The translations under genes were made by a program, and so were the position numbers. Source: a virus. Taken from it: DNA of 24,337 bases. The stretch lies in IMG/VR virus record IMGVR_UViG_3300044547_001615, positions 1-24,337 of that record; one strand, written 5' to 3'. The notes beneath the pieces are model-generated. The model saw nothing but the letters and a program-made list of their open reading frames with translations. It ran no database searches and was not told where the DNA came from. This document shows, piece by piece, positions 1 through 19,389 of the stretch; positions within the stretch are counted from its first letter, which is position 1; the number at the start of each line of letters is the position of its first letter.

Positions 1-116
1 GTATTGCTGGAATTGGTAATATACTGTCGTCTCTTGATAAAGACCCTATTACGGGTCTCCCCTATCTTACTTATGGGATGGGTGCCTCTTCAATTACTTT
101 AGGGGCTGCACTATAA
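1..116 (+). CDS. C-terminal end of a small unknown phage protein (partial, 5' end outside window)
   Basis: An open frame enters from the left edge (first full codon at position 3) and ends at the TAA at 114-116. The visible 37 residues are small and hydrophobic, ending in GASSITLGAAL. The stop overlaps the ATG of the next gene as TAATG, so the two are probably translationally coupled. The Gly/Ser/Leu-rich ending loosely resembles that of the next protein (LGLGSNITIF), which may mean they are related, but the fragment is too short to be sure. The function is unknown; by context it is a virion or tail-assembly gene. Confidence 0.6.
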   Translation, partial: IAGIGNILSSLDKDPITGLPYLTYGMGASSITLGAAL

Positions 117-688
117 TGCCATTAAATCCTGCACTTTTTTATTCTAATTTTAATAAAACCCATGGGTATACCGGAAAGGCCTTACCTATGATAATTTCAG
201 CTATAGCTACTGGCACATATAATTGGATTTCCGGTTCGGGTTTAAACACACTTTCAAAGTGTGCTGGTTCAAGCGGAGTTGGGGATATAAAAGGTAAAAT
301 ATCTTGCCCTCCTCCAGATGTCTCAGGTTTGATTTCTTTAGCTGAAGCAAATGGTATGGGGGGAGATGCTGTGGGTCCTTTGATTTCTTCTATCTCTTTA
401 GGTTTTGTTGAGACTATGAATACTGCTTTATATTCAGGGACTTCTTCTTCTGTGAGTACGGGTACTGAGGGTTTAACAATTATATATGCAGATGCAGGTT
501 CTCTTCAAAATCAGATTTTGTCTAATTTCACTAGTACCGGGGAAGCCACCCCCCAATTTTGTATGGCTATAGCGCAAGTTATCGCTAAAATTTCTTTAAC
601 TTGTATAGGTGTAGGGGTTATTGCACCAAAAGGCCCTGTAGCCCCTACACCTAGTCTTGGGTTAGGTTCAAATATTACTATTTTCTAG
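116..688 (+). CDS. Unknown small phage protein, 190 residues, probably tail-associated
   Basis: The ATG at 116 overlaps the preceding stop (TAATG). An AGGGG at 101-105 could serve as ribosome binding site. I do not recognise the family. The protein is rich in Gly, Ser, Ala and Ile, with alternating hydrophobic stretches (about residues 20-37, 85-105 and 145-170) and four cysteines. One of these sits in a CPPP turn near residue 64. There is no clear signal peptide; the hydrophobic stretches are interrupted by Gly/Ser and look like packed helices rather than membrane spans. It ends 12 bases before the giant gene at 701 and lies in one transcriptional direction with the baseplate genes. A structural role at the tail or baseplate is therefore an inference from position only. 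Confidence 0.6.
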   Translation: MPLNPALFYSNFNKTHGYTGKALPMIISAIATGTYNWISGSGLNTLSKCAGSSGVGDIKGKISCPPPDVSGLISLAEANGMGGDAVGPLISSISLGFVETMNTALYSGTSSSVSTGTEGLTIIYADAGSLQNQILSNFTSTGEATPQFCMAIAQVIAKISLTCIGVGVIAPKGPVAPTPSLGLGSNITIF

Positions 689-700
689 TAGAGTTTTAGT

Positions 701-3700
701 ATGACAGATTTTCTAAAAGGTTCGATTGTTATTCCCCCTCAGTCTGCAAAGACTAACCTCTCCAAATCTCAACTTAAAGGGACAGCCCTTTCTAATTTTG
801 ATGTCCTGAGTGAAGAGGCTGCTAGATTTATTGGAAATTATTATGATAGTGGTCGGGAAGAGGAATATCTATTTTGGATGGATGAGTACCCAGATTATGT
901 GAGTGCTCCAGTATCCCCAGGATCTTTACCACTAGCTTATGATATATTGCACACAGATGTTAAGTTTGCCTGGTCAAGAAACGATAACTATTTAAAAAGA
1001 TTTAATTTTGATTCTAAAAATCAAAAGTGGAGACCTCTCGCAGGCTCTAACCCTATTAATTTAGGTCAAATTATTTCTGGCAAGCGTTTTTCTTTAAACC
1101 CGACTCTATTGCCTTATGCGGCAGGCAATCCTATTTATTTTGATAAGTTTTTTGCAGGTAGTGTACCTAAAGAAGTGTTAGTGCCTGTAGTTATACCGCT
1201 ACTTGCCGATGGGGAGGCACCTCCGACCCGATTTGACCCTGGTGTAGACTTATATATTACGGAGGGTAACAATGAGATTGTATCTGTAAACCCGATTCAT
1301 CTCGGTAAAACTCTTTGGTATAATCCAATTTCTTTTCAAAAGAATATGTCGGGAGTAGTTGGCCACTTACAAGATAAATCTATTTTTATATCTCCAATTC
1401 CTGCACCAACAGAAACACCTCTTATTCGAATAGGTTTTCGCAAATATTTAGATGTTAAATTGACCGATAGTATTCCTAATTCTTGGAGTGATCCAAATAC
1501 TTGTTACGTAAACACTACTACAGGTGAATTAAAACTACATGTTGATTTAAAAAATAAACATAATACAGATAAATCTTATTATAATAATGAAGTTTTCTAT
1601 GATGGCATTCGTATGGGCTATACTTCTACCCTTTGTTCAACGGTAGAAGTTTTAGGTGAGGTGGATTCAAATTCTGGTTTTTATACGGATTATTATAAGA
1701 TAGATTTTGAATCCAATAAACCAAAGCTAGATCTCTTTTTTAAAGATTCTGCGGGTAAGATCTCCGCAGAAAAATTCTTACTTTATGCTGAAATTATTTG
1801 TTATGATAGTGATAATAAAGAAACTTCTCACAAATATTTTCGGGTAGATGATGACGATAAATTTAAAGATTCTACCTCAACAAATATTAATAGTCTCATA
1901 GAAGATTTAGCAGATGTTGAAAATTATTGTTTTTTAAATTATCAATCTCAATGCTTATATTTCTCTGAGAATATTGCGGACGAAATAGAGGGTGAAGACC
2001 ATTGTACTATCTATTTGCATCAAATTTCTTTTACACCCTTAAGCCCCTGCGATGGTCGAATTTATTCAAAAGATCTTAAGCAAACATGGAAATTAACATC
2101 AGATAATAACCCCTTAGCCAATAAGGGTCCTGGAGTGTATAGTACAAAAGAACTAGTAGCCTCTGAGAATAACTTAGGCATTGATCGGGGATACTTATAC
2201 TATACTTTTGATTCAACACCTGATTTTTCTAAATTTGTGAACTATTCAGATTATTTGCCTTATTCTGAATTAGGTATTTTTCCTTTTCAAAGTACTTCAA
2301 AAAAATACTATTCTGATTCTAGTATTTATTATAGTTTAGATAATTTATACCAGTTGAATCCATTACCCACATACTCTCTTGTAGAATATGGTAAAAAAGA
2401 TGAGCCTGTTAGATTAACGGAAGAATTTAAAAATAATAAAGTTCAATTTTTAGATTATTCCCCAGCTCAAGACCATGAACTTGAAGTTACTTATGCAGAT
2501 AAAGAACCTTTAAATCAATATGAAGATTTTTTAGTAGACTACTCAAATAAAAAATTATACTGGTGTGAGTCTAAGTCCATACCTGACGCATCAAGTTCTT
2601 TAAGAACCTCTTTTACATTTAATGCAGCACTTTTTTCTCCTAGCTTGACAGCTCCTTTTTCCAATAAGCCTTCTAGTGTTACTATTGGAGCTAGTAGCAA
2701 ATTACTTTTTCCAATGGGGTATAGCATCCCAGATATAACAGAAGAGCATTTTACTAACTTACGCTATAGTTTAAACTCCCAAACTGGGGTTATCAGTTTT
2801 AATAAGAACTTAAACAATAAAGTAGCTTATGGGTACTCGGGTTCTTATACCAATAAACTTACGGATTTAGAGTACCCTTTTAGTTTAACTCCGGGTTCTT
2901 CATATTATTTAAAAATTCTATCTGGCTCTAATAGAGGTTTCTATATTCTAAATTCCGATGGGGTTGTAGATCCGAGTACCCCTATATACAATAGCGTAGA
3001 TCAAAATTTTTCTTGGGAGATTTATGAGGCATATCCTGCTCAAGAACTTGTAAAAGAATTTTATAAGACTTTAAATTATGTTGCAGCAGACCCAAGAATT
3101 AAAGTATATATAACTCAAAGCTTATCTCCGGATTCTGATTTTTCTTTTTTAAAATCCTCCATTGAAGCAGGTAGCACTATTTATGTAGAGACTCCGAGTG
3201 GGTCGAGAATTGATTTAAAACTAGTAGAAACACAAGTTGCAGGTTCAGTAGGCTTTCCTCTCCCCGAGCCTGCTAGTACTCAAGATATTTATATCGCAGG
3301 GTCAGTAAATCCGGTCACTTTTGAATCCTTAAAAAGTAATACAGCTGATTTAAATAAAAAAGTATTATATATAACAAAGGTGTCTCCTACAGATTTTTAC
3401 TATGAGCCTGTTACAGGGACTCTTAATATACCACCTGGTTTAGTTGGCACTCTTGTTCAAGTATTAGATCTTACAAATACTTCTGATATTTCTTTTAATT
3501 CTGGTATGGGTGAAATATTCTTAACCAATGATTTAACAGAAGGTCAAACTCTAAATTTAGATTACTTTGATTGTAATGCTGCAAATATACATACAGGTGT
3601 AAAACAAACTGCTGCATCAAACACTAAAAATTTATCTCTTGGAAAACCATTTTTTAGGCCAAGCTTTAAAATTATCAAGAACGGTAGCGGTATTAGAAAC

Positions 3701-6700
3701 TATGTCTCTCTTGCAGGAAAGTTCTCTGAATTACAAAAAGGCTCTTTATTAGTACTTGAAGATAATCATGTTGTAAAGGTAGACTCTGTTAATTATGCTA
3801 CTGTTGATGGGATTGATTATACAAATATAACATTATCTCAAAATTTTTCTTATGAGGTTGGTTCTCGGTCGCTATCTAAATGTTTTGGGGTTAAATATTT
3901 TAATAATTTAGCTGCTCTAAATTTCAAACAGACTAAATTTAGTCCTATATCTCATAGAAGTTTTGGGTCTAAAAAAATAACTTTAGCAGATGATTATAGT
4001 TTATATGCTCTTGAAAACTCTATATTAGAAATTTCTTTTAATAATAACACTTATTATCATCTTGTACAAAGTGTAGATTCTTCAGGGTCAATTATATTAA
4101 AATCACCATTGAATTTTAATTTCCCAACTTCTGCAAATATTAAAATTTATTATACTCCTGTTTCAGATAACAATGTTAACAAGTGTTTATGGCTAACTCC
4201 AGATGCAGATTCCTACTTCTTAGATACAGGGCTCTCATCAGATTTACCAAAATCTTTAATATTATTTAGCTCTTATAATGTTGCTGGGCGGGAGTTACTG
4301 TTATCACAAGATTATAATATATCAGGAAATAAAATCATATTCTCAAATGATTTAAAAATAAAGACTGGTCAAAAAGTAATCTTTTTACATAACCGTTCTG
4401 TTGCACTGTTACCTGGAGTCCCTTTTAATGCTACGGCGTTAATTTATACTGATAATCCTAAAGAAGGTAAGCTTCTTGGGAAGCCTCTCTATATTTATTA
4501 TACCCACTTGTTTCCAGATACCTATCAGTCTCAGATTCAATCAGTTGCATCTTTCGCAGCTAATTTAGACCCTACTTTAACTAATACTGGTCCGAATGGG
4601 AATTCTGGCCCTCCTCAGTTATCTGGAGGTTCTACTAAGCCCTCTGGAAATACACACTACAAGTCAGAATCTGTTTGGTACCGCGCAAAAGATAGGGCTG
4701 CGCGTGAGAAGCTTGCTTACTTAAATACCAATATTTCGAGTTTCGAACAGATTTTAGAATTGTTGAGTGGTAGATTTGTGGGCGGGGTTGATGGGAAATT
4801 CAAGACATTTACTGGAAAGACCTTGAGATACCCAATACCCGAGAGATATGAAGACCCCGTTTCTGGGGAAATTCGATTTACTAAATATACTTCAAGATTT
4901 GAATCTGCTCCTTCAATACAAAGTAGAAAGTTTAGAGTTCTAAGTTCTGTGTTAGGTGTACAAAACAATATTGATGATTATATCATAACAGGATTACGTA
5001 AATCAAGTGGTGAGTATTATTGGAGTTATAGAAGAATAGCTGCACCTAGTTTTTATTCTAGATTATTTTCTACTAAAATTCCCGTGACTTCCCAGTTAGC
5101 TGATAATGGGGCCGAGGGTTATGGCTTCTTTGATACTAACGGCGAAGAGATTGGGAGTCTATCGAACTATCTTTTAGGTCCTGTGTCTAATATTCGTAAA
5201 TTAGATAAACTTTTTGATGAAAAACCCTTTGGTAGGCTTGTTTCTGCGACTTTTAGTTCGGGTACAATTACATTAATAATCTCTTATCTTGAAGATAATG
5301 CGCCACTCCCAAGTACGGCAGCAGAAGTTGCTGGGTCTAACAGTATAAATGACTTTTTAAATAATTCAAAAGTGCCGGTTTTTCCTGGTAGCGGTGCAAT
5401 ATCTAAATATTCTAAAGGTACTCCGTATGTTGTTTTCTTTAAAGATAAGGACACTGAAAATTTTAATTTTAACTATGTACGCCGTCATGTTCCAGAATAT
5501 GGTGGGTTTTTATTTGATACCGAATTATATCTTGAACTTATAGACTCTCTTTTAATTAAGGACGGTAATGAAATTGTCGGACAAAAGTTAACTGTTAGTA
5601 ATTTGAGAAACAAAAAAGGTACATCTGATACGGGAGTAGACCAAGTAGATATTGTTGAGCCGGACAGTGCCAATCCTCTTAACAAAGAGGATGTTGCAGA
5701 ACTACTAAATACTTATACCTGTGTATCTTATGCTTTCCCTTTTGTGAAAGACAGTAAAATTTCTAATTTGTCCTTAACTAATTCATCTTTAGAGCAAGGT
5801 TTGGGTGCTACCTACATAGTAGGTTCTGATATAGATTTAGATGCAGAAGAGGGTTCTTTAATTGATAACTCTTTTGGGGATGTTTCTTATGACAATCCTA
5901 CTGGTTACAATTTCTTCTTTGATTCTTCCTGCCCTCCTCCAGGAGCGCATCTTAAAGGTTTAGCTATTATTTACCCAAAAAGAATCGCCCCCTTAAAGAT
6001 CCCAGCTTTGAATGGGGGTTTTTTAGATGACTCTGGGCAAGATTCTAATAAATTTATTAAGCCTACTTTACAAGTAAATAAATATTTTAAAGAGTATCAT
6101 GACTCTTTAAAAGAATTACAAAAACTAGACGATGAGGTTAGATTATCTGAAGATATTAATTTATCGAGTAGTCAGTTTTATTTAGAAGGGGGCGGGTTTC
6201 AAATTTTAGACCCTGAGGGGTTACTTATTACTAACTTAGTTGACTCCTCTGATAATTATTTATCTCCCACAAAGTATTATCAATATAATGATCCGAATAC
6301 GAATACCCCTAAAGTTTTTCTTCCCGCATATTCTAAGTTAATTACTAATTACAAATATGAAAATTATTATGATAGTTTAAATAGTCAAGATCCATCAGAT
6401 TATATGACTGTTATTTTTAATTCTTCTTTTACCCCTGGAACTTCATCCTTAACGCTTAGTTTACCTAATGCATTACCTTGGCAAAAATTAGAGTCCTTAT
6501 TAAAATTATCTGGCTTTACTAACACCTTAGAAGTATTTTTGAGCTCTAGTACAGGAGATACTTATAATATAGTTATTTCTGGCAAGGACTTTAATATTAC
6601 GAAAACTTCCCCTAATTCAGGAATCATCAATAAGTCTGCAAGTATACAAAGTATTACAGTAATTGATTTTAATTTGTATGTTACATTTACAAAGACAGTC

Positions 6701-8269
6701 GGTATTGATATACCCTCTGAAAATTGTCCCTTTTCGGTATCTTTTAATTTTAAAACACTTCCGGTAGCTTCTAAACCTTTTGTCGAAAAAAACCATATTT
6801 TAAATGATAACTCTAATATTTTGCCCGACACATTAGATCGTCTAAGCCCTAAATTTAAAGTAAAACTATATAATGGTACCGCTATTGACTCGAACTATGA
6901 CTCTATAATTTTTGATGACAAAATTATTCTTTTAAAGAAGATGAAGGTACGTTCAGAAGATACAAAATTAAAAGCTTCTTGGATTAGATTAACTGCGTAC
7001 AAAGAAGGTAGTGTTAATTATACTTCTAATAGTGTTACGGGGACCGATCTTCTAAAATTAAATAAAGATGAAACATATTTATTTATTATGAGTTCCGGTG
7101 TCTATTGCTTATTAATTTATAACAATAATGCTTGGACATTTGCATTTGACTTATTTAATCAGAAATTCGACTCTCAGGACCTTGCAGAATTAATTTCTGG
7201 GACTTATGATCTATATAGAGTTAGAAGATATTCGGTTCTTCAACAGTATGTATTGCTTAGTGTAGCTGATATTAAAAATAGTTTACCCACTATGCAAGTT
7301 ACTCTAGATACGTACTCTACGTCGGATGAGAGTTATCGGCTAACTAGTTCTCATAAAATATTTTCAGCAATTCATTATAACTTATATTCAAAGTTAATTG
7401 GTTCTTATATTATTCATGATAATTCTAAAATATTTATAAAAAATGTTATCAAATCTGGGCAAGATGTACGTGTCGTGTTAGATTCTCGTGTTCAACTGCC
7501 TTTGATATTTTCAAATATAACTTTGTTTATTAAAAACACTAATGCACCTTTATATCAAAGTTTGTTAGAAGTAGAAGCAGATTTATTTTCAAATAAACAG
7601 ATATTATCTAATATAAATACAAAATCTGATTCCGGTGTGGTAGGTTTAAGTATAGAAAATTTACAAATTAAGGTGGCAGATTGGGATTATGCCTTAGTAG
7701 AAACCAAGTATCCTGAATATATTTCTATTAGTAATAAGATGTTACGCAACTTTAACATCTATCAAGTCAATAAAGATACGTCAACCTCAACCCTACTTAC
7801 TTTAAAAAATATTAGTTATGAGTCAACCCATTTATATCAGGGTTCTTTACAAGATCTGCCGGGTGAGAGCCATACAGTTACCTTGTTTAAAAAATCTTCT
7901 CTTGCCTCGGATCCTTTAATAAATTATTATTTCTTTTGGTTAGTAAAGTTAAATGTCATTTCTTCTAGAGATTCTCTAACTTTAAATAAATCCTATATTA
8001 AAGGATATTACCCTTTACCGGATTCTACTTCTTTAACCTATATTTATGACTCACACTATATTAGTGATCAAATTTTAAATATTTGGTTAGGGTCTGAGGG
8101 CTCCACCTATACTGATTCTTCTTCTAGTTTAGAATCTTTAATGTTAAAAGGTACAGAGTCTTATTTCTACACTCTAGATAAAAAAGCTCTTGGGTTAGCA
8201 CGAAGAGAACGCTTTAGATGGGTTACTTTTAGAACACATCGTACTCAAGGTTCTCTATTTAAATCTTAA
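701..8269 (+). CDS. Giant beta-rich presumed virion/baseplate protein, 2522 residues
   Basis: This is by far the largest gene here. It starts at an ATG 12 bases after the previous stop, behind a weak TAGAG site, and I recognise no named family. It is rich in Ser, Asn, Tyr, Asp and Thr with predicted strand character almost throughout. Hairpin-like units of the form (T/S)G-x-(I/L)-x-(F/L)...V-x-V-x-Y recur near residues 272, 692, 900, 932 and 1205. A Gly/Pro/Asn/Ser linker at about 1291-1322 separates two halves of roughly 1290 and 1200 residues. A charged, partly helical region rich in Arg and Lys follows at about 1325-1420. A short possible coiled coil lies near 1792-1815. The C-terminal 26 residues are strongly basic (ARRERFRW and on). 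The beta-rich composition argues against a tape measure protein. Position ahead of gp25-like and J-like genes suggests a large baseplate, hub or spike component; this is inference. Confidence 0.75.
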   Translation: MTDFLKGSIVIPPQSAKTNLSKSQLKGTALSNFDVLSEEAARFIGNYYDSGREEEYLFWMDEYPDYVSAPVSPGSLPLAYDILHTDVKFAWSRNDNYLKRFNFDSKNQKWRPLAGSNPINLGQIISGKRFSLNPTLLPYAAGNPIYFDKFFAGSVPKEVLVPVVIPLLADGEAPPTRFDPGVDLYITEGNNEIVSVNPIHLGKTLWYNPISFQKNMSGVVGHLQDKSIFISPIPAPTETPLIRIGFRKYLDVKLTDSIPNSWSDPNTCYVNTTTGELKLHVDLKNKHNTDKSYYNNEVFYDGIRMGYTSTLCSTVEVLGEVDSNSGFYTDYYKIDFESNKPKLDLFFKDSAGKISAEKFLLYAEIICYDSDNKETSHKYFRVDDDDKFKDSTSTNINSLIEDLADVENYCFLNYQSQCLYFSENIADEIEGEDHCTIYLHQISFTPLSPCDGRIYSKDLKQTWKLTSDNNPLANKGPGVYSTKELVASENNLGIDRGYLYYTFDSTPDFSKFVNYSDYLPYSELGIFPFQSTSKKYYSDSSIYYSLDNLYQLNPLPTYSLVEYGKKDEPVRLTEEFKNNKVQFLDYSPAQDHELEVTYADKEPLNQYEDFLVDYSNKKLYWCESKSIPDASSSLRTSFTFNAALFSPSLTAPFSNKPSSVTIGASSKLLFPMGYSIPDITEEHFTNLRYSLNSQTGVISFNKNLNNKVAYGYSGSYTNKLTDLEYPFSLTPGSSYYLKILSGSNRGFYILNSDGVVDPSTPIYNSVDQNFSWEIYEAYPAQELVKEFYKTLNYVAADPRIKVYITQSLSPDSDFSFLKSSIEAGSTIYVETPSGSRIDLKLVETQVAGSVGFPLPEPASTQDIYIAGSVNPVTFESLKSNTADLNKKVLYITKVSPTDFYYEPVTGTLNIPPGLVGTLVQVLDLTNTSDISFNSGMGEIFLTNDLTEGQTLNLDYFDCNAANIHTGVKQTAASNTKNLSLGKPFFRPSFKIIKNGSGIRNYVSLAGKFSELQKGSLLVLEDNHVVKVDSVNYATVDGIDYTNITLSQNFSYEVGSRSLSKCFGVKYFNNLAALNFKQTKFSPISHRSFGSKKITLADDYSLYALENSILEISFNNNTYYHLVQSVDSSGSIILKSPLNFNFPTSANIKIYYTPVSDNNVNKCLWLTPDADSYFLDTGLSSDLPKSLILFSSYNVAGRELLLSQDYNISGNKIIFSNDLKIKTGQKVIFLHNRSVALLPGVPFNATALIYTDNPKEGKLLGKPLYIYYTHLFPDTYQSQIQSVASFAANLDPTLTNTGPNGNSGPPQLSGGSTKPSGNTHYKSESVWYRAKDRAAREKLAYLNTNISSFEQILELLSGRFVGGVDGKFKTFTGKTLRYPIPERYEDPVSGEIRFTKYTSRFESAPSIQSRKFRVLSSVLGVQNNIDDYIITGLRKSSGEYYWSYRRIAAPSFYSRLFSTKIPVTSQLADNGAEGYGFFDTNGEEIGSLSNYLLGPVSNIRKLDKLFDEKPFGRLVSATFSSGTITLIISYLEDNAPLPSTAAEVAGSNSINDFLNNSKVPVFPGSGAISKYSKGTPYVVFFKDKDTENFNFNYVRRHVPEYGGFLFDTELYLELIDSLLIKDGNEIVGQKLTVSNLRNKKGTSDTGVDQVDIVEPDSANPLNKEDVAELLNTYTCVSYAFPFVKDSKISNLSLTNSSLEQGLGATYIVGSDIDLDAEEGSLIDNSFGDVSYDNPTGYNFFFDSSCPPPGAHLKGLAIIYPKRIAPLKIPALNGGFLDDSGQDSNKFIKPTLQVNKYFKEYHDSLKELQKLDDEVRLSEDINLSSSQFYLEGGGFQILDPEGLLITNLVDSSDNYLSPTKYYQYNDPNTNTPKVFLPAYSKLITNYKYENYYDSLNSQDPSDYMTVIFNSSFTPGTSSLTLSLPNALPWQKLESLLKLSGFTNTLEVFLSSSTGDTYNIVISGKDFNITKTSPNSGIINKSASIQSITVIDFNLYVTFTKTVGIDIPSENCPFSVSFNFKTLPVASKPFVEKNHILNDNSNILPDTLDRLSPKFKVKLYNGTAIDSNYDSIIFDDKIILLKKMKVRSEDTKLKASWIRLTAYKEGSVNYTSNSVTGTDLLKLNKDETYLFIMSSGVYCLLIYNNNAWTFAFDLFNQKFDSQDLAELISGTYDLYRVRRYSVLQQYVLLSVADIKNSLPTMQVTLDTYSTSDESYRLTSSHKIFSAIHYNLYSKLIGSYIIHDNSKIFIKNVIKSGQDVRVVLDSRVQLPLIFSNITLFIKNTNAPLYQSLLEVEADLFSNKQILSNINTKSDSGVVGLSIENLQIKVADWDYALVETKYPEYISISNKMLRNFNIYQVNKDTSTSTLLTLKNISYESTHLYQGSLQDLPGESHTVTLFKKSSLASDPLINYYFFWLVKLNVISSRDSLTLNKSYIKGYYPLPDSTSLTYIYDSHYISDQILNIWLGSEGSTYTDSSSSLESLMLKGTESYFYTLDKKALGLARRERFRWVTFRTHRTQGSLFKS

Positions 8270-8286: not shown

Positions 8287-8469
8287 ATGGAATCATTTAA
8301 AAAAGTAGATGGTAAAAAGTTAGGTGAGGCTCTTTTTGGGGACTTTATTAAAGATTTAACAGCCCTCAGAGATGGTTTACAGGCCTCGATTGTGGAGCAA
8401 GAGAAAAGAATTAAAGAGCTCAAGGATCAGTCGAGTGGTCAGGTTCAAAATATAGACGAAAAGATTTAG
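8287..8469 (+). CDS. Small coiled-coil protein, 60 residues
   Basis: A short gene with a strong Shine-Dalgarno site (AGGAAGG) and tight fit between its neighbours (17 bases after one stop, 7 bases before the next start). The first half is mixed and slightly basic. Residues 20-48 form a likely amphipathic helix with heptad-like Leu/Ile spacing and charged faces (LRDGLQ, then EQEKRIKELKDQ), typical of a coiled coil. There is no membrane segment or signal peptide. It could be a small structural linker, an assembly chaperone for the flanking large proteins, or an oligomerisation factor. No family is recognised, so the function is open. Confidence 0.65.
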   Translation: MESFKKVDGKKLGEALFGDFIKDLTALRDGLQASIVEQEKRIKELKDQSSGQVQNIDEKI

Positions 8470-8476
8470 GTCTAAC

Positions 8477-10648
8477 ATGGCGGATACAAGTATTGAATGG
8501 ACAGAGTGGCATGGCTCTCCCGGGGTAGAACCCCTCGGCAAAGATAGTGATTTAGTTAAAACCGCTAAAAAGTTAGAAGCCGTTTCAGAGCTATTAGGTG
8601 TTGTGTTAGAGGTACTGGGTGTTGTTAAGAAATTTGCTGGTATGTTAGAAGACCCATTAACGGCACTTATAGTAGAACTTGAGCAAAAAGTAAAATCTTA
8701 TATGCAAGATAAGGCTGGTTTTTATCTTTCACATGACATTAATCGTCTTAAAAGGGCTTACGCTAACCGCCCTCTTGCTATATATAACCCCAACGCACCA
8801 TATGTTGAGAGAAAGCGGGCAGAGTTTCAAAGTTTTCTTGCTTTTTTACAGCAATTTAAGGGTATAGATTCTTTTAATCGGGAATACTATAAGAGATTGA
8901 CAGACACTACTATAACTCCGCGTCCAATTGCCTATAATTCAACTGTTGCAGCTCTCTTTATTACATTGGGTGGGGATGTAGATGCCATAAAGCCTATTAT
9001 TCAACTTCTTTTACTTATTGAAAATATTTGGAACTTTAAGGATTCTGAATATACAACTCTTAACGGCTTAAAATATGGATTCACATTAAAACCGGCACCC
9101 GGAGACGCTGTTGATATAGATAATACTATACATTCTTATTTAGATGTTGTTCAAGGTGTTAGAGAAGTTCAAGAGTTATCTATCACGGTAGATGCTGACC
9201 TCTTGTCGTCATTATTTGAAGATTACTATCTTGTTTTATATACAAACCCTGAAGGTTTTTTAAGGTTTGCAGATCCTCTTGAAAAAGCAAATAAATCTGA
9301 AAAAGAGGATTATAGAGTTATATACCATTTTCATAAGCCAGAAGATTTACAGCATCTGGTTTATGACGATACAAAAACACCGCCTAGTTTAAAAAATATT
9401 TCTGAGGGCAATATAAAAGTAAAGGATACTTTTGAAGAAAATAATGGGGGTGTAATCAACACAGAGAGTTGTCAGCATATTATAGATCTTAATCAACTTA
9501 TTCCAGTAAGTGAGTCTCTTATAGATTCTAATATATGGAAACTTAAATACCCACAAATTAAGCCGGATGGTTCTGGGATAGATTTAATAAATAATCCAAC
9601 GGATAAGGTTTACGCTCGAGTTTATTTTTCTAAATCTAAGAAATATTCAGCTCCTCTCGTTATTAGAAAACCGGTACCTGTTGATTTCGAGGGGGTCATT
9701 AAAACAATAACGGCTTCTTTAATTTATTATATGCAGTTCGCCTATGAACCTCCTTCAGGAGCCTCCCCTAGTACTGTTCTTGCAGATAAACTTCGTGGTC
9801 GTATCCCCGAAGATTTAATGGTGACAGTAAGGAATTATTGTTTAGGTTCTGCTTATTTGTTTAATAATGACTCCGCAGTATCCTATAAAAATATTTTGGC
9901 TAATGATATGGAATATGTGGCACTTTGCAATGCCGTGGCTGAATACCCGTATCTATTACGAGTATTCAATATTTCTAAACCTGAGGATTTTAAAATTGAA
10001 AAAGACGCCCTTATTAAAAAATTAAATGATTCTAATATAGGCAGTAGAAGTTTCTTATATAAGAACCCTGTTCCAGATATGTCCGCAGAAATTATCGCCT
10101 TTTTTGACAAAATTTTAATTGCAAAGTTTCCTACAAATGCAGAGCCAGAAGATCCGAATGCTATCTGGAAAAATTGGGGGACTGCCACTATACCTTACAT
10201 TAAGCAATTATCTGACAGATTATTTAGATTTCTAAAAGAGTTTGCAGACTCTTTAAAAGGTGCAGGCCAGGGTATTGTTAAATTTATTACTAACTTAGAA
10301 AGATATGTTAATTTTTTAAAAACCATAGTTGACTTTATTAATTTAATAATAAAAATATTTATTGAATTATACAACGCTCTCTCTGGTGATTTTTCAATAA
10401 ATTTATTATATTTCCCAGATGCAAATGGGGAAGCAGCAAGTAGTACCCAGGATCTTGCAAATAAACTTATTTCTTCTCAGATACCTCAATCCGATGACCT
10501 TAATTCAAATAATTTATATTATTTGGGGGGTGCTCTTGTATTTACCTCCGGTATTCCTAACATATTAACCACTCTATTATCTACTATTGTTGTGGATTGG
10601 GCTAAAGATGATACAACGGCGGAAGAAGAGGAAGAGGTAGAAGTATGA
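8477..10648 (+). CDS. Unknown presumed virion structural protein, 723 residues, with helical ends
   Basis: The gene starts 7 bases after the preceding stop with a weak AGG overlapping that stop. I do not recognise the family. Residues about 24-80 form a long, largely hydrophobic helical stretch (LLGVVLEVLGVVKKF), followed by a mixed alpha/beta middle. A second helical hydrophobic stretch lies at about 580-640 (FLKTIVDFINLIIKIFIELY) and a third near 685-709. The protein ends in an acidic tail with five consecutive Glu (716-720). The hydrophobic stretches carry charged residues and look amphipathic; one near 613-630 could be membrane-active. The last codons overlap the next start (ATGA at 10645-10648), so it is probably co-translated with the 320-residue protein and may partner it. 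A tail or baseplate role is inferred from context. Confidence 0.7.
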   Translation: MADTSIEWTEWHGSPGVEPLGKDSDLVKTAKKLEAVSELLGVVLEVLGVVKKFAGMLEDPLTALIVELEQKVKSYMQDKAGFYLSHDINRLKRAYANRPLAIYNPNAPYVERKRAEFQSFLAFLQQFKGIDSFNREYYKRLTDTTITPRPIAYNSTVAALFITLGGDVDAIKPIIQLLLLIENIWNFKDSEYTTLNGLKYGFTLKPAPGDAVDIDNTIHSYLDVVQGVREVQELSITVDADLLSSLFEDYYLVLYTNPEGFLRFADPLEKANKSEKEDYRVIYHFHKPEDLQHLVYDDTKTPPSLKNISEGNIKVKDTFEENNGGVINTESCQHIIDLNQLIPVSESLIDSNIWKLKYPQIKPDGSGIDLINNPTDKVYARVYFSKSKKYSAPLVIRKPVPVDFEGVIKTITASLIYYMQFAYEPPSGASPSTVLADKLRGRIPEDLMVTVRNYCLGSAYLFNNDSAVSYKNILANDMEYVALCNAVAEYPYLLRVFNISKPEDFKIEKDALIKKLNDSNIGSRSFLYKNPVPDMSAEIIAFFDKILIAKFPTNAEPEDPNAIWKNWGTATIPYIKQLSDRLFRFLKEFADSLKGAGQGIVKFITNLERYVNFLKTIVDFINLIIKIFIELYNALSGDFSINLLYFPDANGEAASSTQDLANKLISSQIPQSDDLNSNNLYYLGGALVFTSGIPNILTTLLSTIVVDWAKDDTTAEEEEEVEV

Positions 10649-11607
10649 GTTTTGGGTGGTTGGACTCTTTTCGAGCTGGTCAATGGTATTCTTTACGTTC
10701 TTTTCTTCTTAGGGAACGCAAGAATGTTCCTTTACGTGTGTCCACGATTGTTGACGAAATTAAAAGAATTGGTATTATAAAAGTTCATTATAAGAAAAAA
10801 ACAGTAGTTAAGCCAGCAGAGGATGGTGGAGGTACTATAGAGGTTATAACCGAGGAGAGGGAAGGTTTTGAGATAGGCTCTAAATATGAGCATCCCTTTT
10901 ATTACGTTGACGGAGCACCTTCTGAGACCAGACCTAACTATCAAGCACCCTCTTTATTAAAATTACTTCAGGCTTATGTGGCTCTTGGGGGAAATCCCTT
11001 AGACATATCTCTTTTTTTACAGCCAGATATTGCTTTTTATGTAGAGGGTTCGGAAAAGATTCAAAGTCAGCCCTATGGGGGGTATATTTCAGTTAAATCT
11101 GGGTTTTCTGGCGAGGATATGTCGGGGTTTTCCGAGGCTGGTCTTAGCACCATTTTGAAGCACCCTTACAATAGATTAAAGAAAAAAGACCCCTCACCGG
11201 GGCATCATGTGGCCAGAATATCTCAGGCTAGAGAATGGGCAAATAAAGAAATAACAGCAAAGAGAAACCGGATTGAAGAGAATATCATTAAACTATGTGA
11301 TTTAAGGGAACAGTTATTTATGGAGTTATTTGATACTTTAAAGACCTCCCTTTGGGGTACTTTTTCTGGTTCAGACCCAAACTTAAATTTTTTAGGTGAA
11401 CCTCTAACTGTTACATCAGACCTATTGGATATTCAGGAGGAACATTTATTTTATATTATATCTCAGATAGATAAAATTACCTTTAATACTGCTAAAGTAG
11501 ATGGGGTTACTTGTATTGACCCTAATTCTATTAAAGTTACAATAGAAGACGCCCCGAGAACTAGAATTTATCCTGATTTACCTGAAGAAAAGAACACAGC
11601 TTACTAA
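10645..11607 (+). CDS. Unknown presumed virion structural protein, 320 residues
   Basis: The start codon overlaps the previous stop (ATGA), and purine-rich GGAAGAGG just upstream serves as ribosome binding site. The N-terminal half is mixed, with a lysine-rich strand at about 44-57 and a GGNPLDIS motif near 115-122. A QPYGGY motif occurs near 142-147. Residues 190-237 form a long charged helix, probably a coiled coil (REWANKEITAKRNRIEEN and on). The C-terminal part is beta-like and ends in a hydrophilic tail. No enzymatic motif is visible. The coupling with the 723-residue gene and the gp25-like gene 10 bases downstream suggests a baseplate or tail-end structural protein. I cannot name the family with confidence. 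Confidence 0.7.
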   Translation: MSFGWLDSFRAGQWYSLRSFLLRERKNVPLRVSTIVDEIKRIGIIKVHYKKKTVVKPAEDGGGTIEVITEEREGFEIGSKYEHPFYYVDGAPSETRPNYQAPSLLKLLQAYVALGGNPLDISLFLQPDIAFYVEGSEKIQSQPYGGYISVKSGFSGEDMSGFSEAGLSTILKHPYNRLKKKDPSPGHHVARISQAREWANKEITAKRNRIEENIIKLCDLREQLFMELFDTLKTSLWGTFSGSDPNLNFLGEPLTVTSDLLDIQEEHLFYIISQIDKITFNTAKVDGVTCIDPNSIKVTIEDAPRTRIYPDLPEEKNTAY

Positions 11608-11617
11608 AGAGTCTTAA

Positions 11618-12985
11618 ATGTCTAAAGATATTTTATTATTATCTTACTGCCCACATCAAATACTCGATCAGAGGGTTTCTTTAGACCCTCTAAATCGTAA
11701 ACTGCTAGCTATAGAGAATAATTCGATAGAGGATGGTTCTTTAAAACTCTATGCCAATAAAACGTGGATTCCTCAGCAGGGGTTACTGATGCCTGCTCAG
11801 CATATCTCGGCAATAAAACTACCACTTAACTTAAAAAGTGCAGTATCTTTAATAATTAAGACCCGAGATTTGGCTGAGACTTTAACAATACCCTCTGGAT
11901 ATTACACCCCTCAAAAGATATTACCTTTTCTACAGAAAAGTAAGTACATAGCAACTGAAGTATCTAATTCGGTACTTATTTTCACAGATAAGTCAGGGCA
12001 ATTAGGTTTAAACTCTTATCTACAAATACTTGGAGGTGAGAGCCTTGGTATACCCTCTGAAAAAGTACAGGGCAGGGTACTTTACCCACCTTGGCAAGTA
12101 AAAACATCTAATTCAATTAATTTAAATTTGACGGGGACTCCTTCGCAGGCGGTTTCCCATCTAAAACTACCTATTAAATTATTACAGTCCGTAAATATTT
12201 CAATTTCAAGTGATTACACTACGGAACAGATTTCTATACCCGCTGGTTATTATACATCTGACTCAATATTAAGATTTTTAGTTGTTAGTACTCTAGTAAC
12301 TCCAGAGATTATAAATGACCAAATTATTTTAACTAATAATACAGGATTCTTAGGTAGACCTGCCCCTGTTTCTATTTATGGTGGGGATTTATTAGGTCTC
12401 CCTTCTTTGGAATTAGACCCCCCCACACTATCTAGAACCTCCATAATTTTTAAAAAACCCATACTATCCAACCCTATTTTTAAAATTTCTTATTACACAA
12501 ATCAACCTAATTGTTATCGTTGCATGGGGTCCGGAGTTGAAAACGATTATAATTTTGATACTTATGGAGAGATTAAATTAATTGAAAATGAAAATCTTTT
12601 ATATCAGGCTTGTATGAAGATTCTTTTAACAGATATAGGTTCTAATCCTTTCCATACTTGGTATGGGTCTAGCATTCAAAGTCTAATTGGTGCTAAAATG
12701 GTTACAAATGTGGCAGGAGAATTGCGAAAATTAACACTAAATGCTCTATCTAAGGTGCAAGAAGTACAAAAAACACAAAGAATGCATCAAACTGTTACCC
12801 CTAAAGAGTTACTATACACCGTAAGTTCATTAGATGTCTTAATAGATGAGGATAATCCTCAACTTATTACTTTAGATATTGCTGTAATGAATGCCTCTTC
12901 AGAGGCTATAAAATTAAATATCAATTATACCTCTGCCCAAGTAGCTGCCCTTTTCACTGGGTCTAATGTTTCTCTAGGAATTTAA
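11618..12985 (+). CDS. Baseplate wedge protein, gp25/gpW-like, with duplicated N-terminal domain (455 residues)
   Basis: The C-terminal part, from about residue 310, matches the gp25/W family of contractile-tail baseplates. It has a LLYQ-x-CMKILLT helix at 327-338, then GSNPFHTWYGS at 341-351, then a helical stretch and a closing strand pair, with VTPKELLY in the place of the family's EPR-type segment. In T4 and P2 this protein sits in the inner wedge and initiates sheath assembly. A CYRC motif (C299, C302) followed by GSG lies just before it. The N-terminal 290 residues are extra compared with T4 gp25 (132 residues). They contain two similar copies of one domain (about 62-147 and 179-263), each with an IP(S/A)GYYT motif and an (L)GG(E/D)-x-LG(I/L)PS end. 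The start has an AAAGAG ribosome site. The J-like gene begins one base after its stop. Confidence 0.88.
   Translation: MSKDILLLSYCPHQILDQRVSLDPLNRKLLAIENNSIEDGSLKLYANKTWIPQQGLLMPAQHISAIKLPLNLKSAVSLIIKTRDLAETLTIPSGYYTPQKILPFLQKSKYIATEVSNSVLIFTDKSGQLGLNSYLQILGGESLGIPSEKVQGRVLYPPWQVKTSNSINLNLTGTPSQAVSHLKLPIKLLQSVNISISSDYTTEQISIPAGYYTSDSILRFLVVSTLVTPEIINDQIILTNNTGFLGRPAPVSIYGGDLLGLPSLELDPPTLSRTSIIFKKPILSNPIFKISYYTNQPNCYRCMGSGVENDYNFDTYGEIKLIENENLLYQACMKILLTDIGSNPFHTWYGSSIQSLIGAKMVTNVAGELRKLTLNALSKVQEVQKTQRMHQTVTPKELLYTVSSLDVLIDEDNPQLITLDIAVMNASSEAIKLNINYTSAQVAALFTGSNVSLGI
11801..12058 (+). repeat. N-terminal domain copy 1 in the gp25-like protein
   Basis: Encodes residues 62-147 of the gp25-like protein. 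It aligns along its whole length with residues 179-263. Shared landmarks are KLP near the start, IPSGYYT in the middle, an IFT-DKSGQLG turn, and GGESLGIPS at the end. The similarity is clear in protein but divergent in DNA, so the duplication is old. Confidence 0.8.
12152..12406 (+). repeat. N-terminal domain copy 2 in the gp25-like protein
   Basis: Encodes residues 179-263. It carries the same landmarks as copy 1: KLP, IPAGYYT, ILT-NNTGFLG and GGDLLGLPS. The IP.G.YT signature also occurs in other viral structural proteins as part of a small beta/alpha domain; that comparison is from memory. Confidence 0.8.
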
Positions 12986-12986
12986 A

Positions 12987-15900
12987 ATGTTATTTAAACT
13001 TTATCCGGGTACCACTATAAATTCAAATTTTCAATTTTCTACAAATTTGTCAAGTAGAATTTTTGAATTTGAGGGCTCTAATTTAACCTTCCAGAAAAGT
13101 GTTAGTAGTGATAATACTGTTTTTTCAAATTCTCAATCTGTAACCCCATTTAAAGTTTTGGGTAACTCTTATACTTTAAATATACCTTTAGAAGACCTTT
13201 ATACAAGGATAACTATATCAGAAGGTACTTCTACTTATAATCTTATCGTCTACCGTATAGATGCACTAACAACCCTTCCTCCCGCTCCTACGGGATTCTC
13301 TGTAGGGTCATTAGAGACCGGTGCAAGACTTAAAGTAACAACCTTCTCCGATAAGAGAGATGCCTATAAGTCTTATAATTTTTATGCCTCTCGTGAAACA
13401 GGGGGTACTTTAACAGGTTATACCCTATTAAATTCAATACCGGTTTCCAATCCTAAAACTTCTGAATCCGATAACACTTTCTATTCTCAAAAACTTTTGT
13501 CGTTGCCAGATTCTACCCATTCGTCTATTCCGGATATTCTTACGGTTAAACTTTCAGGTGTATCTTCTGGAAATACTTTAACTTTAACTGAGGATTCTTT
13601 TAAAAAACCAGATGCTTCTAATACGCTACAAGCAACGGTATCTTTTTCAACAACACTTTACACTCAGGAATATGTGTTCGATCATACTCGAACTTCGAGT
13701 TTCCCAGATGTTCCCGATACTAGTCCTCTCTATTATGTAGCAAGTCTCATATCTTATGACCCCGTTACTAAGCGGGAACTTGAATCTCCGTTCTCTATAG
13801 AACTTTCTTCTTATCCTGTCAGGCTTGGGTCTCAGATAGTATCTCTTCCCAAGCCTACACGGCAAAATATCTTAGAAGATATAGCTAAAATAATTTATTC
13901 AGCTAAACCTGATATTTCTATACAGCCTGGATCTGTCTTAAGAGACCTTACACTAGATCCTATCAGTTTTGAGTTAGAGAGGCTGAGATTTATTATAGAC
14001 TTTTTCTATAGGGCGACTTCGTTTAGTACTCTTTTAGCTGTTGATAATGATGATACTTATTTAGAAGCTTTGCGTCAAGCATTATACCTATCTACTACAG
14101 AGAAAGCTAAAATATATTTTGATCAAGCTTTTGATAAATTAGCTTCTAATCTAGGTCAAGTACGTTCTGAGGGCACAAAGGCTCGTGGACAAGTTGTTTT
14201 CTATACCACATCAACACCTAAAGAGTCCTTATTTGTCCCCGCTGGTACAGAAGTCTCCTCCGGAACTTTAAGCTTTGTTACCTTAGAGAACTCTATAATT
14301 GATATTAATAGGCTCTTCTCTTATTTAGACCCAATTAGCGGTCGTTATGCTATTCGTGTATTAGTAGAGGCTGTAGATCCTGGTGTCGCCGGTAACCTAG
14401 GTCCTTCTCAGGTAAAAACTATCGTATCTTCGGTTCGTGGTCTTAATGTTACAAATGAGGCGTCTTTTTTCGGGGGTACCGATGGTGAAACGAATCGTCA
14501 GCTTTATGAGCGGTGCTCAAGAGTTCTTGCCTCTGTAGATAGTGGAACATCTCAAGGCTATAAACAGCTTCTTGCAGGTACAGCAGGGGTGCTAGACTCC
14601 TATGTGGCAGGTCCTGGTAATCGCTTTATGTTCCGAGATTATAGTGAGCTTTTAGATAAAAATCTTGCAGGTAAAATAGACTTATGGGTTCAAGGCTATA
14701 ACGAGGTTCAGGTTTCAGAGTCTTTCTCTGTAGATGCACTTGTTCTATATAATGAGCCGTTTGAAATTTATGACCTTCAAAATTTGAAGTTCCGACTCAA
14801 AGATACTTCTCGTGTGGATCAGGTAGTTAAAATACTTAATGTTATTCGAGATAATGGGACACCTGTTTTAGGCTTTAAGCGGGGCGATACCAATGAGTAT
14901 TTTACTCTAGTGGACTCCAGTAATGTCGCATACACATTAGAAAGTGGTATTCTAACTCTGCCTAAAACAGACCGTAACAATTCTCTTGTTTTAAATAACC
15001 TCACCTTTTCAACTCCTTTACTGGCAGATATTCAACTAACAACTCCTAGATCTTATTCATTTAAAAAGTATCAGCCTGTTAAAAGTATTGATTTAGTACA
15101 GGTAGAATCTGAGAATGGTGATTTAATAGACTTACCCGAGTATTTCTTATCTGTTCAAGATTCTCCGTATCTTCTTGGGGGTTCTGTAAAAAGTACTTCT
15201 GAAATTTCAATACCTTTTACAACAGATAATGATGCTATCCTAGATAAAATTTTATCCCAGGAAGAGGAAATTGTTATCACCAATATTAAACTTCCTGAAT
15301 ATTTTTCAAAATATGGTGTTTATACGGACTCTGTAGAAGTTTTTGAAGATTCTTCTAGAATGGTTCCGCTACCAAAAGCTAGCTATTCTATTATTTCAGG
15401 GTCTGAGACAAGTTTGACAGGTATTCAGCTCTCAAGTAATCCTGTTTATACTACAGGATTCTCTGGTAGTACATCGACTATACAACCAGGAGATACCATA
15501 TATATTAGATATAAATACCGTCCAAATATCACTGTAAATTATACCACCAATTTACTAGTATCTGCCACTCAGGCTGCTGTGGATGCCAAGAAGCATCTTG
15601 CTGCGGATGTCCTGGTAAAAGAGGCTATAGCGGTTCCTATTGATATTAGTGCAGTTGTATCCTTAAACAAAGGTGCAAGTATTTCAGCTGTAGATGCCAA
15701 TATTAGAACAAACCTGTCTAACCACTTTAGCAAATTAAAATTAGGGGACCCAGTACGGCAGTCAGATATTATAGAAATTATAGATTCTACTGAAGGGGTT
15801 TCTTATGTTCAAGTACCTCTTTTACAGATGGCTCGAACTGATTTCAGTCCCGTCATGTATGAACCCGTCTCACTGAGACAAAATAAATTTGTTGATATCA

Positions 15901-16283
15901 CTAATTCCCTCCCATTGAGTGGTTCAGGGTATCTTGTATGGAGGTCTGATTCTCTCTATCATAATGCAGTTAATACAAAAGAGACTGAAAATTATTATAC
16001 TAGTATTTTACTTGATAGGAAAGAATTAGAGCTTGTCTATGGTATAGTTTTAACAGCACCAAATTTAACCTATCCTGAATTTACTGGGCCCTATCAGGCT
16101 GCAATACTTTATAATAAAGTCTATATCACAACTCCAATAGAAGGTATAAATCCTATAAACCACGAAATTTATGCAAATTATGTGGCGTTATATGACGAGG
16201 GTCCTAAGAATATCGAACCAGAAGATATTGAGTATGCCGTCTTAGGTGAGGTCCTTTTAAAATTTGGTGAGGATACCCGATGA
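12987..16283 (+). CDS. Baseplate J-like protein (T4 gp6 / P2 J family), 1098 residues, with extra N-terminal domains
   Basis: The start lies one base after the previous stop with TAGGAA as ribosome site. Residues about 97-280 look like a fibronectin-III or Ig-like insertion (PPAPTGFSVGS, then YNFYASRETGG). Residues 289-390 carry a conserved lead-in with PGSVLRDLTLDP. The baseplate J core follows: ARGQVVFY at 399, PAGTEVSSG at 418, VDPGVAGNLGPSQV near 466, and GGTDGETNRQLYERC from 496. The typical J C-terminal domain, with conserved IPFDI-like strand and LG-x-PVRQSDI segment, lies at about 860-945. In contractile tails this protein dimerises to form the rim of the wedge and joins adjacent wedges. 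It is longer than T4 gp6 (660 residues). The gene overlaps the next by four bases (ATGA at 16280), typical of J followed by I. Confidence 0.92.
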   Translation: MLFKLYPGTTINSNFQFSTNLSSRIFEFEGSNLTFQKSVSSDNTVFSNSQSVTPFKVLGNSYTLNIPLEDLYTRITISEGTSTYNLIVYRIDALTTLPPAPTGFSVGSLETGARLKVTTFSDKRDAYKSYNFYASRETGGTLTGYTLLNSIPVSNPKTSESDNTFYSQKLLSLPDSTHSSIPDILTVKLSGVSSGNTLTLTEDSFKKPDASNTLQATVSFSTTLYTQEYVFDHTRTSSFPDVPDTSPLYYVASLISYDPVTKRELESPFSIELSSYPVRLGSQIVSLPKPTRQNILEDIAKIIYSAKPDISIQPGSVLRDLTLDPISFELERLRFIIDFFYRATSFSTLLAVDNDDTYLEALRQALYLSTTEKAKIYFDQAFDKLASNLGQVRSEGTKARGQVVFYTTSTPKESLFVPAGTEVSSGTLSFVTLENSIIDINRLFSYLDPISGRYAIRVLVEAVDPGVAGNLGPSQVKTIVSSVRGLNVTNEASFFGGTDGETNRQLYERCSRVLASVDSGTSQGYKQLLAGTAGVLDSYVAGPGNRFMFRDYSELLDKNLAGKIDLWVQGYNEVQVSESFSVDALVLYNEPFEIYDLQNLKFRLKDTSRVDQVVKILNVIRDNGTPVLGFKRGDTNEYFTLVDSSNVAYTLESGILTLPKTDRNNSLVLNNLTFSTPLLADIQLTTPRSYSFKKYQPVKSIDLVQVESENGDLIDLPEYFLSVQDSPYLLGGSVKSTSEISIPFTTDNDAILDKILSQEEEIVITNIKLPEYFSKYGVYTDSVEVFEDSSRMVPLPKASYSIISGSETSLTGIQLSSNPVYTTGFSGSTSTIQPGDTIYIRYKYRPNITVNYTTNLLVSATQAAVDAKKHLAADVLVKEAIAVPIDISAVVSLNKGASISAVDANIRTNLSNHFSKLKLGDPVRQSDIIEIIDSTEGVSYVQVPLLQMARTDFSPVMYEPVSLRQNKFVDITNSLPLSGSGYLVWRSDSLYHNAVNTKETENYYTSILLDRKELELVYGIVLTAPNLTYPEFTGPYQAAILYNKVYITTPIEGINPINHEIYANYVALYDEGPKNIEPEDIEYAVLGEVLLKFGEDTR

Positions 16284-18676: not shown

Positions 18677-18689
18677 ATACTTCTCTATA

Positions 18690-18705
18690 TCCTCCGTAGG
18701 GAGGA
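18690..18705 (+). promoter_or_regulatory. GC-rich RNA hairpin in the intergenic gap
   Basis: TCCTCC (18690-18695), loop GTAG, GGAGGA (18700-18705): a perfect 6-bp stem in the longest gap of the window. There is no T-run after it, so it does not look like a standard terminator. Its 3' arm is itself a perfect Shine-Dalgarno sequence but is too far (22 bases) from the ATG at 18728. A second, weak 4-bp stem (ACCT 18707-18710 with AGGT 18718-18721) could cover the likely true site AAAAGG. It may control translation, mRNA processing or mRNA stability. Confidence 0.5.
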
Positions 18706-18727
18706 GACCTAATTAAAAGGTATTTAT

Positions 18728-19375
18728 ATGTCAAATTTGGAGAAAATAGGGACACCCAAAACAGCATTTAGCTTAAATCTGGGGATGGAACAGTGCTTAC
18801 CTGTTATGATGCCTCATGGGGAATTCCATTTACAGCTTGTTGATGACGCTTCTGGGGCTGTTTTACAGGAGTGGTCAAAGACCAACACTTTAACCGAGGA
18901 TGCTGCCAAGTTTGCAGCTTGGTTGTTTGCCAATGTAAATGGCATGGCTGGCCAATCTAAGCGCCCAGTACACGGTTTAAATGGTCTTGCGGTAGGTACT
19001 GGAAAAGTTACAAACCCGGCACAAGCGAGACACCTCGAAACAGAGGTGGCTCGTGTTGCTGTTACGGATATTGTATTTAAATCAAAATCAGGTAGTAGTT
19101 TAGTACCAAGTGCCACGGCAACAAATATTCTAGATTTTACATTTAAGTTAGATTCTGGTATTGCAAATGGTCTAGCTTTGTGTGAGATGGGTCTTGTATA
19201 TATTCCAAATAACACCTTTGGGAATAAGGGGTCCTCTGGATATACTGCTAACTATCCGGCTACGCCTACGGAAGATATTCGAGATAAAGACATCCTAATT
19301 AATTATTTGTCCTTTGGTGTTATCACAAAACCAGCAAACTCAACCCTTAATATTACTTGGCGTTTAACCTTCTAA
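18728..19375 (+). CDS. Phage baseplate/tail accessory protein, 215 residues
   Basis: The ATG at 18728 follows AAAAGG at 18715-18720. The protein is beta-rich. A conserved-looking motif GLAVGTGKVTNPAQ lies at about 86-99, followed by LETEVAR and, later, ALCEMGL (150-156). The C-terminus closes with LNITWRLTF. Proteins with a GTG..NPAQ...L..E.aR pattern and an aI-TWR-lT ending occur among phage tail and fibre-associated proteins, usually near fibres; this is from memory of such proteins, not a search. No enzymatic residues are visible. Its place between the I-like protein and fibre-type genes suggests it connects fibres to the baseplate. The 52-base gap ahead of it, with a hairpin, separates it from the wedge genes, so it may be expressed at its own level. 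Confidence 0.65.
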   Translation: MSNLEKIGTPKTAFSLNLGMEQCLPVMMPHGEFHLQLVDDASGAVLQEWSKTNTLTEDAAKFAAWLFANVNGMAGQSKRPVHGLNGLAVGTGKVTNPAQARHLETEVARVAVTDIVFKSKSGSSLVPSATATNILDFTFKLDSGIANGLALCEMGLVYIPNNTFGNKGSSGYTANYPATPTEDIRDKDILINYLSFGVITKPANSTLNITWRLTF

Positions 19376-19389
19376 TAATTTTATTATTA
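19373..19389 (+). promoter_or_regulatory. AT-only inverted repeat bridging stop and start codons; no Shine-Dalgarno
   Basis: TAATAAT (19373-19379), loop TTT, ATTATTA (19383-19389). The left arm contains the stop of the 215-residue gene and the right arm ends with the A of the next ATG. No purine-rich ribosome site precedes that ATG, unlike most genes here. A ribosome finishing the upstream gene would open the stem, so coupled translation is plausible. The stem is A/T only and weak. Confidence 0.4.

Follow-up and report, generated by a model that had tools for sequence, protein, structure and literature searches.

What might a 2522-residue protein contribute to a phage when its gene lies just ahead of baseplate genes and its sequence matches no catalogued family? 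The question is posed by gene w2 (701..8269) in a 24,337-nucleotide stretch of viral DNA, IMG/VR record IMGVR_UViG_3300044547_001615, referred to here as the window. All genes and features of the window described below are on the forward (+) strand. The evidence indicates that w2 probably serves as a major structural component of the tail part that docks on the bacterium.

The giant gene w2 and its neighbours

The open reading frame of w2 starts with ATG and comprises 2522 codons with zero internal stops (translation table 11), and its product has a predicted mass of 283 kDa. The frame is considered coding because a conserved family exists at the protein level, and the preliminary description of this DNA was thus correct in proposing an uninterrupted protein of this length. 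It had also called the protein a domain orphan. Searches of Pfam, PHROGs, and the PDB returned no match at E ≤ 1, save one meaningless PDB match with E = 0.87, in agreement with that term, but the term is too strong, as w2 has a domain in common with the gp25-like protein w5. A faint BLAST match of w2 to gp184 of phage G (E = 0.31) was dropped after inspection of the sequence. The basic tail noted previously is evident in the last 42 residues, which have a pI of 11 and contain ten K/R and three D/E residues. The tail includes the motif RRxRxxWxTxRTHRTxG (residues 2501–2519; 8201..8257), which is 53% identical over 19 aa to the homologue from the metagenomic phage LR745208. Residues W2507, R2511, and G2517 of the motif are invariant in the family alignment.

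Directly upstream of w2 is w1 (116..688), encoding a hydrophobic, glycine-rich protein of 190 aa with 30% identity over 139 aa to its LR745208 homologue. The 207-nucleotide gap between w2 and w3 holds the small gene s (8287..8469), which was missed by open reading frame lists with an 80-aa limit and encodes a helical-looking protein of 60 aa. Similar small open reading frames are present in about 50 loci, and the counterparts of s in relatives, of approximately 54–104 aa, usually end with RLKHGGG(S/R), that is, GGG and one residue. The conserved downstream partner of w2 is w3 (8477..10648), a protein of 723 aa with hydrophobic or helical ends, for which Pfam, PHROGs, and the PDB gave no notable match. 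It is followed by w4 (10645..11607; 320 aa), a conserved member of the same module with 30% identity to the LR745208 homologue.

The next three genes resemble those of baseplate wedges. The product of w5 (11618..12985; 455 aa) is similar to gp25, the sheath initiator: it matches PF10934 (Sheath_initiator) with E = 1e-4, which falls below the curated Pfam cut-off, and PHROG baseplate families with E-values of 3e-5 and weaker, and it is homologous to gp187 of phage G (E = 1e-14). Before its gp25 core, w5 has an extra N-terminal domain, which appears by eye to be present in two tandem copies (residues ~60–155 and 190–265) and recurs within w2. The w6 protein (12987..16283) is a Baseplate_J/gp6-like wedge subunit (PF04865, E = 4.7e-23; phrog_6, E = 5e-35) and a homologue of phage G gp188. 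The product of w7 (16280..18676) is likely the wedge protein of the gp7/gpI position, since it weakly matches gp189 of phage G (E = 1e-3) and the gene order is the same. The gp25-like and J-like genes reported downstream of w2 are therefore present. The gp25-like gene is the third after w2 among the listed genes, as had been described, but the fourth once the 60-aa frame of s is counted. Further downstream, w8 (18728–19375) matches phrog_5417, a family of unknown function, with E = 3e-16; it has homologues in Tunturi_5 and in phage G, where the homologue gp190 adjoins the wedge genes. The candidate fibre genes w9 and w10 weakly match DUF4815 and DUF2345, respectively.

Relatives of w2

According to sequence comparisons, w2 belongs to a family of giant proteins (approximately 2,000 to 4,000 aa) that had no name before, with relatives in at least 180 stretches of IMG/VR and in two contigs from metagenome-assembled bacterial bins. 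The family was collected using an alignment of six full-length relatives as the query, and 78 IMG/VR loci of the 180 stretches were kept. The closer subset was used because an alignment of 13 members diverged too much to serve as a seed for the scan of the collection. An alignment of the J protein identified 65 related IMG/VR loci, many of which contain an edge-cut giant open reading frame upstream of w3- and w4-sized genes, and the DNA upstream of these J loci yielded full-length w2 relatives of 1974–3900 aa. Little was found by single-sequence and degenerate-pattern searches of viral contigs for w2, and a scan of viral contigs for the C-terminal motif detected nothing beyond the LR745208 phage. 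LR745208.1, a 485-kb metagenomic phage, provided the sole w2 match among 50,697 phage records; its homologue has 3642 aa and is ~26% identical to w2. A literature search, with subscription journals mostly outside its scope, found no description of the family.

Complete members of the family have 1974–3986 aa. Most are ~3550–3900 aa long and have a mass of ~400 kDa each, so that w2 of the window is among the shortest. The long insertions of the relatives concentrate around w2 residues 75, 962, and 2085–2170. Many of the contigs encoding family members are 200–497 kb long. In one locus, L086 (11203–19225, − strand), the giant gene is present as two overlapping frames of 2017 and 669 aa, which may reflect either a frameshift introduced by sequencing or a genuine split. 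The 497-kb phage contig L174 encodes, at 440–5779 (+ strand), a 1779-aa protein with an N-terminus that looks by eye like a tail sheath, positioned upstream of tube-like and chaperone-like genes and matching no Pfam or PHROG family.

Gene order around the giant gene

The usual gene order in the relatives is hub-like, spike-like, w1, w2, s, w3, w4, gp25-like, J/gp6-like, and gp7-like. The order was quantified for 50 distinct complete giant genes, where each count includes only loci with enough flanking DNA. A hub-like gene precedes w2 in 36 of 42 loci, a spike-like gene in 36 of 44, and a w1 homologue immediately precedes it in 31 of 48. Downstream of w2 are w3 (46/49 loci), w4 (35/43), the gp25-like w5 (28/39), and the J gene (25/35). 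The genes are tightly packed, with intergenic gaps mostly of −1 to 3 nucleotides and a gap of ~46 nucleotides between w4 and w5. The w2–w3 gap, mostly of 166–330 nucleotides, recurs across loci of the otherwise tight operon.

The adjacency of the giant gene and the wedge genes is not universal. In LR745208 and in loci L087, L124, L141, and L165, the wedge genes are not beside w1–w2–w3, and the latter three tend to remain together, which suggests that they form a functional unit. In LR745208, a w3 homologue is located directly downstream of the giant gene and a w1 homologue nearby, whereas the genes w4–w9, including those of the wedge, are ~20 kb away on the opposite strand.

The labels hub-like and spike-like are provisional, as the profiles from which they derive match phage G proteins weakly. 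The hub-like protein of the relatives aligns to phage G gp185 (hhalign 94%, E = 1.4e-7), and the spike-like protein aligns weakly to the OB-like gp186 (E = 2.8e-4). The preliminary description had considered w2 itself as a possible hub. The hub (gp27/gpD) was rejected because the relatives encode a separate hub-like, gp185-related protein ahead of w2, and the profiles of w2 and the hub match with 0.1%. The central spike (gp5/gpV) was discarded in the same manner, since a separate spike-like gene precedes w2 and the profile match is 0.07%. In locus L088, just before the hub gene, a VanY/M15 D-Ala-D-Ala carboxypeptidase domain is fused to a gp184-like tail protein (18024–19712, − strand), which is possibly a tail-associated wall hydrolase.

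Domains and predicted structure of w2

Two segments of w2 are similar to proteins encoded by the downstream wedge genes. Residues ~446–528 (2036..2284) align to the N-terminal domain of w5 with 91.2% and E = 1e-6 in hhalign, the E-values of which refer to single pairwise comparisons and not to a database search. The control comparisons of the same w2 profile to w3, hub, and spike, and of the C-terminal half of w2 to w5, gave 0.07–1.1%. A module of ~54 residues (residues ~704–755; 2810..2965), identified by hhalign and HMM, is weakly similar to the gp7-like w7 (48.7%, E = 1.8e-4), and its HMM reaches E-values down to 3e-8 in related downstream wedge or fibre proteins. Whole-protein matches of w2 to the wedge families gp25, gp6/J, and gp7 were not found. 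Nevertheless, w2 both has a domain in common with w5 and is encoded beside the wedge genes, the combination that was taken to mark a wedge-associated protein.

Additional conserved elements are distributed along w2. A beta repeat unit, for which a regular-expression search was too strict and an iterated HMM was used instead, is present in one to five copies in nearly all family members, with E-values down to 2e-16 in relatives; the one clear copy in the window spans residues 266–299 (1496..1597; domain E = 6e-4). A helix followed by the motif G-[DG]-x-D-G-K-F (residues ~1326–1372; 4676..4816), seen in column counts of 48 members, belongs to the best-conserved parts of the conservation profile. 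The conserved segment P-x-IPALxG-xxxDDSG (residues ~1764–1780; 5990..6040) has the invariant columns P1764, L1770, G1772, D1777, and G1779. Overall, the conservation along w2 is even, with mean pairwise identities mostly of 0.33–0.44. The C-terminal identity of 0.43 is at least equal to that of the N-terminus, and the variable zone (0.27–0.32) is internal.

AlphaFold predictions were calculated for two halves of w2 from 48-row alignments. Residues 1–1200 were modelled mostly as strands with a mean pLDDT of 63, better around residues 200–310 and 700–1150, whereas the mean pLDDT of residues 1323–2522 is 46. The protein had been described as beta-rich throughout, which fits the first half, but the second half also contains predicted helices, for example at residues 1324–1356 and 2404–2427. 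Foldseek searches of the PDB with the models gave no match at E ≤ 1e-3. In a viral library, the best matches of residues 1–1200 have E-values of 3e-4 to 7e-3 with low probability and are weak whole-length matches. These neighbours of the N-terminal half include phage virion structural, tail, tail fibre, tail tip, wedge, and DUF4815 proteins, and a few matches of ~70–90 residues to tail proteins were also obtained. Because of the low confidence of the models and the weak Foldseek matches, no fold is assigned to w2, whether Ig-like, beta-sandwich, or other.

Possible role of w2

The sequence evidence makes it probable that w2 is a giant structural subunit, not described before, of the contractile-tail baseplate of a huge phage. 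This reading is based on the synteny with hub, spike, and wedge genes and on the domain in common with the gp25-like w5; the tight packing of the operon, the w7-like module, and the repeated beta units also favour a structural protein. The same reading draws on the tendency of w1, w2, and w3 to remain together, on the phage G genome, where the standard baseplate genes adjoin one another and no w2 homologue intervenes, and on the mostly stranded model of the N-terminal half with its weak virion structural, tail, and wedge neighbours. The low confidence of the models and the loci in which the wedge genes lie far away count against it. The proposal of an undescribed class of giant baseplate-associated proteins of large-genome phages is thereby strengthened, with at least 180 relatives, contigs of 200–497 kb, the synteny, and the w5 domain in its favour. 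The proteins w1, w2, s, w3, and w4 would constitute a module additional to the tape measure, hub, spike, and gp25/gp6/gp7-type wedge. Several copies of w2, six or three according to the baseplate symmetry, may pack as chains of beta-domains around the hub and spike and against the wedge. The resulting layer, large and either outer or inter-wedge in position, would stabilise the baseplate and join the rearrangement that triggers sheath contraction. The assembly from three or six copies and the role in triggering contraction are extrapolated from the symmetry of known contractile tails. The presence of w2 in the virion, its copy number, position, and triggering role are what we infer from these considerations.

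The large, beta-rich, and repetitive w2 could instead be a baseplate-attached protein that binds the host surface with its beta-domains, whether as a giant adhesin, as a side fibre, or as a peripheral receptor-binding protein. Tail fibre and tail tip proteins are among its weak Foldseek neighbours, and part of the L088 family member matches tail fibre PHROGs. However, the even conservation of w2, with an internal variable zone and without a hypervariable tip, argues against a receptor-binding fibre. None of 13 family members contains a Pfam fibre, collagen, or S74 domain, the candidate fibre genes w9 and w10 lie downstream, and w2 stays tied to the hub, spike, and wedge, and we therefore consider the adhesin unlikely. 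It is quite improbable that w2 is a polyprotein or an assembly scaffold, which would be cleaved or discarded in baseplate assembly: the wide length range of 1974–3986 aa and the conserved basic C-terminus are compatible with such a function, but no protease domain was seen, and all parts of w2 are conserved, including the middle. An assembly factor would likewise be compatible with the synteny of w2, as would a protein that is injected.

Some phages, such as N4 and crAss-like phages, have virion RNA polymerases of 2000–3500 aa, which counts for the possibility that w2 is a virion-borne enzyme of this kind injected through the baseplate. The conserved D-x-D-G-K motif is superficially like D-x-D-G-D. 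Nevertheless, the window's w2 has GVDGKF at this place and the family mostly has D-R-D-G-K, while D-x-D-G-D is sporadic, in 14 of the 48 members and at positions scattered between 337 and 3267. Since the family has no enzyme profile match in Pfam or PHROGs and w2 has a domain in common with w5, an enzyme appears very improbable. The length of w2 and its place upstream of the wedge genes in the tail operon would suit a tape measure protein that sets the tail length. This function is extremely improbable for w2, because the relatives have a separate TMP-like gene upstream. It precedes the hub gene in five records, has open frames of 962–1320 aa, and matches PhageMin_Tail weakly, with E-values of 2e-7 to 8e-4 that are below the family cut-off. 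Furthermore, w2 is beta-rich and comes after the hub and spike in relatives, the annotated tape measure of phage G, gp183, precedes the hub, and no tape measure profile of Pfam or PHROGs matched w2, consistent with the initial remark that w2 does not resemble such proteins.

If w2 is a giant baseplate subunit, its family would rank among the largest conserved structural proteins of phages and would now be named and delimited; it occurs in at least 180 stretches of metagenomic viruses yet escaped the Pfam, PHROG, and PDB searches of this analysis. The w1-w2-s-w3-w4 order would provide a diagnostic module for the annotation of long unknown open reading frames in huge-phage genomes. The testable prediction is an extra massive layer in the baseplates of these phages.

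Comparison with known systems

Huge phages encode predicted proteins of up to 7,694 aa, some of which are tentatively structural (Al-Shayeb et al. 2020, PMC7162821). In the searched text of that paper, the very large proteins are not assigned to a family of this kind, and neither a synteny nor a function of this kind is given for them. LR745208.1, with its giant w2 homologue, can be likened to those huge phages. Giant proteins are also represented among the PHROGs, for example by phrog_2885 (4179 positions, baseplate wedge subunit) and phrog_701 (6136 positions, virion structural protein). Neither w2 nor most members of its family match the giant structural PHROGs; the relative L082 has a module of ~80 residues in common with several of them, but the similarity is local.

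Among gp25-like proteins (PF10934), the extra N-terminal domain of w5 is the part that is also present in w2 at residues ~446–528. In contrast, the gp25 core is not matched in w2, which is more than five times longer than the gp25-like protein.

The closest parallel in gene order is Bacillus phage G, which has gp183 (tape measure), gp184, gp185 (hub-like), gp186 (OB-like), gp187 (gp25-like), gp188 (J-like), gp189, and gp190. The order tape measure, hub-like, OB-like, gp25-like, J-like, gp7-position, and w8-like is the same in phage G and the w2 loci, and the homology of phage G proteins to w5–w8 and the hub is detectable, and weakly so for the spike. However, phage G has no detectable homologues of w1–w4, and the entire w1-w2-s-w3-w4 module is missing from the interval between gp186 and gp187. 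Whether many uncultured, mostly huge phages have an extra baseplate layer, built from a 280–430 kDa protein and four partners between the hub/spike and the wedge and unlike the solved baseplates, is in our estimate evenly balanced.
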